Shown here: positions 18,658 through 20,540 of the stretch, in pieces
How positions within the stretch are numbered: the stretch's first letter is position 1
Layout: every line of letters starts with the position of its first letter
Assembly: GCA_013178225.1 (NCBI GenBank)
Contig: JABLXE010000001.1
Span: 62,001 to 126,000, forward strand
Length of the DNA stretch: 64,000 nt
Reading direction: 5' to 3'
Origin: Methanotrichaceae archaeon
GTDB taxonomy: Archaea > Halobacteriota > Methanosarcinia > Methanotrichales > Methanotrichaceae
The notes under the pieces: model-generated
What the model was told of the DNA's origin: nothing
The model's database searches: none
Seen by the model: the letters and a program-made list of their open reading frames with translations, nothing else
Program-made: the position numbers and the translations under genes

Positions 18658-18837
18658 TTACTTCTTTGGTTTAATGACCACTTCCGCCACGTGGACGGAT
18701 GCTCCTCTGAGCTCTATTGTGATTCCACCTGAAGAAGCTGCAGGCATCGCAAATCCTGGCGCTGCTGCTGCTGCGGCAGGTGCGGCCGCCGGTGCGGCTG
18801 CTGCTGCAGGCTCCTTCTTCTTGAGTGACAGCTTCAT
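18658..18837 (-). CDS. Ala-rich mini-protein 2, CdhC C-terminal-tail-like
   Basis: A 59-residue protein easily missed because of its size. It begins MKLSLKKKEP, has a long Ala/Pro linker, then GFAMPAASSGGITIELRG and VHVAEVVIKPKK. An SD (GAGGGAG) sits 6-7 bases before the ATG. It is a paralogue of the mini-gene just upstream: same basic start, same linker, same GGI-beta-strand ending. From memory the ending resembles the C-terminal extension of Methanosarcina CdhC. It lies 14 bp before cooC in the ACDS operon. Role unproven; a docking peptide for the complex is plausible. Confidence 0.75.
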   Translation of the reverse strand: MKLSLKKKEPAAAAAPAAAPAAAAAAPGFAMPAASSGGITIELRGASVHVAEVVIKPKK

Positions 18838-18926
18838 AGTTTTCTCCCTCGCAATTTTTCAAGAATAATTTCACCCGCGAAGCAAAAACCGCAGTCATCC
18901 TCCTAAAAAAAGGAAGAGATGCGGCT

Positions 18927-19112
18927 TTACTTGGCGAGTGTCACTTTGTCTATGCTGATCTTAGCGTCCTTGAGCACCAGCTTGATGCCGCCCGATGATC
19001 CGGCAGACATTGCAAATGCGGGTGCTGCGGGTGCTGCACCAGCAGCGGGAGCGGCGGCCGCTGGGGCCGCAGCTGCTGCAGGTTCCTTCTTCTTCAAAGT
19101 TAGCTTTGCCAT
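18927..19112 (-). CDS. Ala-rich mini-protein 1, CdhC C-terminal-tail-like
   Basis: A 61-residue protein: MAKLTLKKKEP, an Ala/Pro linker of about 20 residues, then SAGSSGGIKLVLKDAKISI and DKVTLAK. The SD GGAGGGAG precedes the ATG. It starts 18 bp after the cdhC stop. The ending matches, from memory, the last residues of Methanosarcina CdhC (GGIKLTFKNAKITIDR), which are part of that protein. The CdhC here lacks this ending. It therefore looks like a detached domain of acetyl-CoA synthase that was then duplicated. Low complexity makes homology searches weak, so only the last 25 residues are informative. Confidence 0.78.
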   Translation of the reverse strand: MAKLTLKKKEPAAAAAPAAAAPAAGAAPAAPAFAMSAGSSGGIKLVLKDAKISIDKVTLAK

Positions 19113-19130
19113 TTTTCTCCCTCCTCGATT

Positions 19131-20540
19131 TCACTCGAGTACGCCATCTGCTTGCAGAGCCTCGACGACCTGCATGAACTGGCCCTCAGACATCCCGAGC
19201 TTTGCCTTTACGGCCTCGGTGTCGATGTCGCCGCCAGTTGCCTCTATGAAAGCGATGACCTTTTCCTTCATGTCGTCATCGATATCCTCGAACTTCCAGC
19301 CCTCGGTTATCTTGGCACCGTCAACTGGCCTGCTGACGCCGTTGACCACAGGATGGTCTACCTTCAGCAGGAACTTCTTTAAGGATTCGATATCAGTGGC
19401 ATCGGCCTCGGTAGCGATCTTGGGGAACATGGCCTCGGGAATTCCGGCCTTTACCCTTTCCTTCAGTCCCTTGGACATCCAGACGATCCTGTCCCAGCCG
19501 CCGTCGGCCTGCAGGAACTTGGGCGAGAAGTAGTACAGCACACCCATGCCCAGGAAGCCTACGACCTGCTTGCCGCCGCCGGTCTGGCCAGCCATGGTGG
19601 AGAAGGGCAGGCCGTTGGGGGCAGCTCCCTTGAAGTCACGGTCGGCGATGCCGATTCCGTCTACCTCAGGCATGTAGAAGCCGATGGTCTCGAAGCAGCC
19701 ACAGGAGGTGTGGGGTGCATCGAAGAACGTGTACAGCTTCATGACGCTGTACTCGCCGCCGGACCTCTGCTCGGCCATCTGGTTGATGGCTTCGTACTCG
19801 CCGGCAATGGCGTCGATAGCGGTTCCCTTCTCAATGGGGAACTGGGGTCCCTCTGGGTCTACCTTGGCAGCAGCCCGGCCATCGAACCAGGTGATGGCAC
19901 CGCACAGGGAAGGCCTGTCAGGAGTGACCACGCAGGCGCTGGTGGGGGCGAAAGCCTGGCAGAGAGTGCAGCCGTAGAAGACGTCCACGTCCTCATCGTG
20001 CAGTCCCTTGGCGCGCTCGTCCCTGGCAGCGTAGACTGCCATGGCGTTGGCCAGCTGCTTCTTGACTTCAGCCGGATCGGTGTAGATGGTGATCTCCATC
20101 TTCTCGATGAAGGGCATCTCGGCCTTGTACAGATCGATGACCGGCTTGTAAATCTGAGTCCAGGAGGTGACTCCCTTCTTCTTGAGGTTGGTGCCGATCC
20201 TCATCCAGATATCGTACCTCTGGTTCAGGTGCATGAGCCCGCTGATGTAGGACAGCAGGGCGTGGTTGCGCCTCTCGATGATGGACTCGAGGTCCTTCTC
20301 GATCTTCTCGCCGCCAACCTTGAAGACCATGCCGAAGGGCATGGTGGTGCCCTCTGCCGTCTCGCCGAGATCCGGGCCCACTACTGTAACCTTTCCATCC
20401 TCAATCTGGTCCATGGGGGTGGCCAGGGACAGCTCGAAGCCGTCAGCCTTGGGGCCGCCAAGCTCTACCCATAGATCGCCTTTCCTGATTCTCTCGCCCT
20501 CATACATAGGGGATATATCCAACTTGATCTCTTCTGCCAT
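19131..20540 (-). CDS. cdhC: ACDS beta subunit, acetyl-CoA synthase
   Basis: A 469-residue enzyme whose A-cluster makes or breaks the C-C and C-S bonds of acetyl-CoA. The A-cluster Cys residues lie in FYGCTLCQAFAPTSACVV and SLCGAITWFDGR (about residues 188-222), with another conserved Cys pair in HTSCGCFE. The conserved body ends near HPVV (about residue 398). The last 70 residues (GWKFEDIDDDMKEKVIAFIE to QADGVLE) form a helical tail unlike the acidic, Ala/Met-rich extension recalled for Methanosarcina CdhC. The missing extension is apparently encoded by the two mini-genes that follow. Confidence 0.96.
   Translation of the reverse strand: MAEEIKLDISPMYEGERIRKGDLWVELGGPKADGFELSLATPMDQIEDGKVTVVGPDLGETAEGTTMPFGMVFKVGGEKIEKDLESIIERRNHALLSYISGLMHLNQRYDIWMRIGTNLKKKGVTSWTQIYKPVIDLYKAEMPFIEKMEITIYTDPAEVKKQLANAMAVYAARDERAKGLHDEDVDVFYGCTLCQAFAPTSACVVTPDRPSLCGAITWFDGRAAAKVDPEGPQFPIEKGTAIDAIAGEYEAINQMAEQRSGGEYSVMKLYTFFDAPHTSCGCFETIGFYMPEVDGIGIADRDFKGAAPNGLPFSTMAGQTGGGKQVVGFLGMGVLYYFSPKFLQADGGWDRIVWMSKGLKERVKAGIPEAMFPKIATEADATDIESLKKFLLKVDHPVVNGVSRPVDGAKITEGWKFEDIDDDMKEKVIAFIEATGGDIDTEAVKAKLGMSEGQFMQVVEALQADGVLE

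Follow-up and report, generated by a model that had tools for sequence, protein, structure and literature searches.

About two-thirds of the methane produced by methanogens stems from acetate cleavage, a process in which the ACDS complex is central (PMC11474084). The closest described relative of the proteins treated here is the C-terminal extension of the M. thermophila CdhC (ACS beta) subunit, residues 398-472, where an Ala/Pro/Met-rich linker precedes a hairpin (PDB 9c0s, 9c0t; PMC11474084). Cryo-EM did not resolve the extension in the sole CODH/ACS structure from a methanogen and its role was stated to be unknown, so no function can be transferred from it; it probably matters for the swinging of ACS between CODH and the corrinoid protein (PMC11474084). 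A homologous hairpin, and the position in the operon at the 3´ end of cdhC, are common to this extension and to a small protein that we call m1. The M. thermophila extension is, however, covalent and present in a single copy, and it has neither an N-terminal KLxLK strand nor a winged helix. Methanotrichaceae instead possess a separate tail gene, a second companion gene (m2) and a CdhC that ends in a predicted winged helix. In the open-access literature we found nothing on point for a small ACDS protein of Methanothrix or for a winged helix in ACDS.

The 64-kb window (the whole stretch of DNA that was analysed) carries on its minus strand a complete ACDS operon, in the order cdhA, cdhB, cdhC, m1, m2, cooC, cdhD, cdhE. 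Its relevant features are:

23642-21147, minus strand: cdhA
21133-20570, minus strand: cdhB
20540-19131, minus strand: cdhC, acetyl-CoA synthase (ACDS beta), 469 aa (PF03598, PF19436)
19134-19292, minus strand: predicted acidic winged-helix domain, CdhC residues ~417-469, net charge -10 (profile, AF2, Foldseek)
19126-19118, minus strand: Shine-Dalgarno-like sequence of m1, gaggaggga
19112-18927, minus strand: m1, 61-aa mini-protein with type-1 hairpin, the putative detached CdhC C-terminal extension
19083-19112, minus strand: basic N-terminal beta-strand of m1, MAKLTLKKKE, proposed as the missing wing strand (docking inferred)
18930-18992, minus strand: C-terminal hairpin of m1, GGIKLVLKDAKISIDKVTLAK (profile specificity, pN/pS)
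18850-18844, minus strand: Shine-Dalgarno sequence of m2, gagggag
18837-18658, minus strand: m2, 59-aa mini-protein with an N-terminal half like that of m1 and a type-2 hairpin
18661-18729, minus strand: C-terminal hairpin of m2, GGITIELRGASVHVAEVVIKPKK, of the type common to Archaeoglobaceae mini-ORFs
18644-17883, minus strand: cooC, homologue of the Ni-insertion ATPase, conserved downstream neighbour
17871-16516, minus strand: cdhD

The first-pass annotation had described two ORFs of 61 and 59 codons between cdhC and cooC, each behind a Shine-Dalgarno sequence of the GAGGGAG type and each encoding a KKKEP start, an Ala/Pro linker and a beta-strand ending. This description proved accurate for both genes. 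In both proteins a flexible, Ala/Pro-rich linker free of K/R precedes the hairpin; the fraction of alanine plus proline is ~0.40 (m1) and ~0.38 (m2). Neither protein is covalently linked to CdhC; both are separate ORFs with their own Shine-Dalgarno sequence and ATG, and their frame relative to cdhC is not conserved. The source genome harbors a single CdhC (PF19436) locus and a single m1/m2 pair, and the core of the window CdhC is homologous to residues 3-399 of M. thermophila CdhC (9c0s_E, E=7e-180).

The suggestion that the ending of m1 resembles the end of Methanosarcina CdhC was borne out by alignment. In a phmmer search against the PDB, m1 is matched with E=8.8e-9 by the M. thermophila CdhC (9c0s chain E) over residues 414-465 of the latter; the counterpart of the m1 C-terminal hairpin GGIKLVLKDAKISIDKV is the hairpin of the Methanosarcina extension, and m1 carries the motif G-I-K-[LI]-x-[LF]-K-[DN]-A-K-I-x-I-[DE]-[KR] of that module. 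Run on the remaining families of the class, the m1 profile matches the last ~50 residues of ~470-aa CdhC ORFs; the exceptions are a few ORFs truncated at contig ends. In the wider phylum, too, most matches are CdhC C-termini. An artefact of low complexity or composition is excluded by a 20-residue hairpin profile built without the linker. Searched at E<=10 against 33,870 six-frame ORF segments (1.9 million residues), it gave 128 matches, composed of 90 CdhC C-termini, 32 mini-ORFs and 6 others (one CdhC-type tail behind Ns and five matches at E>=2.7). That m1 represents the CdhC C-terminal extension made as a separate protein is well supported.

Both ORFs are kept between cdhC and cooC in relatives, as the first-pass annotation had proposed to check. 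The pair was recovered in most of the 50 Methanotrichaceae genomes searched, and the order m1-m2-cooC could be read outright in 35 of the 36 loci with m1 and cooC on the contig; in the 36th (L056), m2 runs into an assembly gap. A Shine-Dalgarno sequence precedes 37 of 38 m1 genes and all 34 m2 genes of the family, and the same numbers start with ATG. Pooled pN/pS of the hairpin codons (Nei-Gojobori) is 0.14 in m1 and 0.34 in m2, hence the hairpins are under purifying selection. Apparent loss of the ORFs in some relatives is mostly explained by the absence of any cdhC match from the genome, by truncation of cdhC at a contig end or by the assembly gap; one cdhC copy (in G009) truly has no m1 downstream. 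Both mini-ORFs are confirmed as real genes and are not due to chance.

A second cluster, cdhA-cdhB-(cdhC)-m1, is present in genomes of the M. harundinacea type (L070, L071, L037, L032, L064), and downstream of it lie genes similar to those for heterodisulfide reductase subunits. One such Methanothrix cluster (G008) has lost cdhC and has an intact m1, and in that of G011 m1 has decayed. Another detached ACDS module is seen in some Methanotrichaceae, Methanoliparia-like and Methanoperedenaceae-like loci, where separate ORFs of 73-108 aa resembling the N-terminal domain of CdhD lie just upstream of a full cdhD (L061 7256-7477, L063 5966-6217, L117 2126-2353, L133 5921-6247, in operon-strand coordinates).

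The second mini-protein is of a different kind. Its match to M. thermophila CdhC (9c0s chain E) is weak (E=0.05), and by profile comparison its hairpin is related to the extension module of CdhC but distinct from it. Hairpin scores between loci are 85 for m1-m1 and 69 for m2-m2, compared with 28 for m1-m2. Type 1 comprises the fused CdhC tails together with the mini-proteins of Methanoliparia and of family f12, while strong matches of the type-2 profile in the phylum are confined to Methanotrichaceae and Archaeoglobaceae. Most Archaeoglobaceae have an ORF of 27-45 aa between cdhC and cooC, which shares with m2 the type-2 hairpin KGAxIHIxELII and the syntenic position. Unlike m2, this ORF has no N-terminal strand or linker, and the neighboring CdhC retains a fused type-1 hairpin and lacks the winged helix. 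Because these type-2 ORFs adjoin fused type-1 tails, the hairpin of m2 probably predates the split, a dating that 20 residues cannot prove. In two Archaeoglobaceae loci (L125, L126; g78), the 33-aa ORF after cdhC is of type 1 (KDAKIYIEK), unlike in most of that family.

The N-terminal halves of m1 and m2 behave differently from the hairpins. Over the first 14 residues, m1 and m2 of the same genome score 49.4 against 25.8 between genomes (0 of 5000 permutations), and with one locus per genus the values are 55.0 and 27.6 (0 of 20,000 permutations). The hairpins show no such same-genome effect. By these scores the N-terminal halves evolve in concert, which would be best explained by gene conversion or by selection exerted by one common partner.

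A candidate for such a partner is found at the end of CdhC itself. The first-pass annotation had noticed that the local CdhC bears a helical tail; the tail is there, but we predict it to be a winged helix, and it is tied to the split state. AF2 places helices at residues 422-435, 441-448 and 452-464 and a strand at 468-471, with pLDDT of 84-92 by blocks (421-470), and the chain ends right after this first wing strand (GVLE). Behind matches to ACS, Foldseek retrieves winged-helix proteins, including PefI and Zalpha; the first of them reach probabilities of 0.94-0.99 with E-values of only 0.09-0.2. The predicted order H1-H2-H3-strand is shared with winged-helix domains of this kind (DUF7343/MarR-like; PefI, Zalpha). 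The tail differs from them in scoring below Pfam gathering thresholds (DUF7343, E=0.0084, 16.4 bits against a cut-off of 27.6), in ending before the second wing strand, and in being acidic, a property which makes DNA binding unlikely.

A winged-helix profile trained on Methanotrichaceae alone scored 61-77 bits in Methanoliparia, 56-58 in f12, 32 in the second cluster of f21, 28 in f23 and 17 in one Archaeoglobaceae genome (G223), as opposed to at most 2.5 bits on all other CdhC tails in the set. Methanotrichaceae, Methanoliparia, f12, f23 and the second f21 cluster combine the winged helix with a separate mini-gene directly behind cdhC. Among the loci compared, CdhCs without the winged helix carry their hairpin fused. 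When the winged helix was the sole query in a search of the phylum, additional second-cluster CdhC loci emerged in f21 and f29. In three of them (G341, G242 and G318 contig C90), cdhC is immediately followed by a new separate mini-gene whose product starts with a KLKxK- or KIKxK-type sequence, and one contig (G318, C44) ends at the cdhC tail. In split lineages the first wing strand (GILE, GVLE or a comparable sequence) is the last element of CdhC, and the mini-proteins begin with an alternating strand (KLTL, QLKL, LKLKI, VLELSL). The link between a winged helix on CdhC and separate hairpin genes is new.

Several cdhC copies stand outside this pattern. Extra copies in G009 and G015 have no adjacent m1; the one in G015, a near-complete genome of the Methanothrix family (L307, C1, ~1657344), is the exception in the winged-helix search. 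It is ~79% identical to the window CdhC and has a winged-helix tail, with no other ACDS genes or mini-gene in the 8 kb inspected. Some f11 genomes (L277-L281) encode a second, diverged CdhC, and this copy has neither a hairpin nor a winged helix at its end.

Taken together, we consider it likely that m1 is a detached structural tail of CdhC, that m2 carries an anciently different hairpin, and that both act as tethers which re-attach to CdhC. Each mini-protein would be a two-ended tether, in which a flexible Ala/Pro linker of ~25-30 residues joins a basic N-terminal strand, K[LI]xLKxK, to the C-terminal hairpin. Most likely the hairpin would dock at the site that the fused tail uses in other archaea and serve the movement of ACS between CODH and the corrinoid protein. 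ACS has to travel between these two (PMC11474084), which makes either of them a candidate partner of the hairpin. Docking of the putative tail peptides within the megadalton complex is plausible. At the other end, the N-terminal strand would complete the CdhC winged helix that stops after its first wing strand. In this way the hairpin would be re-attached to CdhC without a peptide bond, and m1 and m2 would share one site.

The completion of the wing by the mini-protein strand is a tentative part of this model. AF2 was run on natural cdhC-m1 concatenations with stop codons read through (the window TGA as Trp). In the window model KLTL pairs with the last CdhC strand, and MQLKL does likewise in the model of L171, a locus whose spacer is longer, both with pLDDT of ~50; the second wing strand appears only with m1 linked, at low confidence. 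Such contact is favoured by joining the two proteins in one chain. The short model has a pTM of 0.38, and the hairpin alone is predicted to be disordered (pLDDT ~28-40). Other observations also speak against the overall reading. Firstly, charge pairing between winged helix and mini-protein N-terminus fails as a general rule, the values in f23 being -2 and -11. Secondly, the G223 CdhC unites winged helix, linker and hairpin in one chain of 553 aa. Thirdly, the secondary cluster of G008 keeps m1 after the loss of cdhC, and the extra cdhC copies of G009 and G015 lack a neighbouring m1. If the strand does complete the winged helix, CdhC copies could carry either tail; m1 and m2 might then compete for the truncated winged helix of each CdhC, and their ratio might tune the movement of ACS, a speculation that we regard as rather doubtful.

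It is also conceivable, though on balance we would not expect it, that m1 and m2 are trans-acting ACDS tails attached elsewhere, for example with both ends to CODH or to the gamma-delta corrinoid protein. The winged helix of CdhC would then have a separate, older role, and its association with the mini-proteins would be historical. The cdhA-cdhB-m1 cluster of G008 fits this explanation, as do the faint AF2 signal for strand pairing and the Archaeoglobaceae type-2 peptides; since the latter have no N-terminal strand and their CdhC no winged helix, hairpins can act without it. On the other hand, the mini-proteins bear an N-terminal strand in all five winged-helix lineages with separate mini-genes, searching with the winged helix uncovered further split loci, and the confinement of concerted evolution to the N-terminal half agrees with a single common partner.

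According to the first-pass annotation, the extension of CdhC underwent fission and the fragment was then duplicated into m1 and m2. Such a split in the Methanothrix lineage would accord with the fused tails of the other families in the class, the tandem arrangement and the near-identical N-terminal halves, but we hold it to be improbable. The m1 and m2 hairpins have diverged deeply and show no same-genome similarity, m2-type ORFs sit beside fused type-1 tails in Archaeoglobaceae, which argues against the m2 hairpin as a recent copy, and the split state is found also in Methanoliparia, f12, f23 and the deep f21/f29 type of CdhC. Duplicate-like behaviour is confined to the N-terminal half, by way of concerted evolution. 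As for fission, a separate tail protein does exist; there may have been fission here or fusion elsewhere, because the split state recurs in several lineages. On the tree of CdhC cores it needs approximately four changes, and a grouping of Methanotrichaceae with Methanoliparia is not rejected (AU p=0.62). As the winged helices are homologous by profile, two histories are possible: an old protein of core, winged helix and hairpin may have undergone later splits and losses of the winged helix, or an old split state may have been followed by fusions. Our survey covers one phylum, and we favour neither.

The position of the mini-genes directly before cooC might suggest that their products mature the nickel clusters and have no structural role. 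CooJ and similar nickel carriers are His-rich. The mini-proteins do not show the metal-binding His/Cys of CooJ/CooT-like factors; no m1 or m2 contains Cys, no m1 contains His, and m1 shares ancestry with a covalent portion of CdhC, so that such a role is very unlikely. Synthesis of CdhC and m1 as one protein through stop-codon readthrough is hardly credible: in the window the two genes are in the same frame with one TGA between them, and in f23 a single in-frame TAG separates cdhC from the mini-gene (G247, L283 4856-4858), but the frame is shared in only 11 of 36 family loci, roughly the one-third expected by chance, and m1 has its own Shine-Dalgarno sequence and ATG nearly everywhere, which refutes conserved readthrough or frameshifting for the family as a whole.

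Among other assemblies, 2-oxoacid dehydrogenase complexes have swinging arms with Ala/Pro linkers as well as docking peptides. The likeness lies in a flexible linker between small binding elements that serves moving active sites; the mini-proteins have no sequence relation to these arms and no lipoyl or biotin attachment site.

We suggest that m1 and m2 are likely, still putative subunits of ACDS. No Pfam or NCBIfam model covers either of them and both are shorter than common gene-length cut-offs allow; preparations of Methanothrix ACDS, whether purified or recombinant, may therefore lack them. Since obligate acetate users make the extension separately, its role could be tested by adding or omitting a 6-kDa peptide. 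If the proposal of interchangeable tails is true, one megadalton ACDS complex would carry a mixed set of docking tails with different hairpins.
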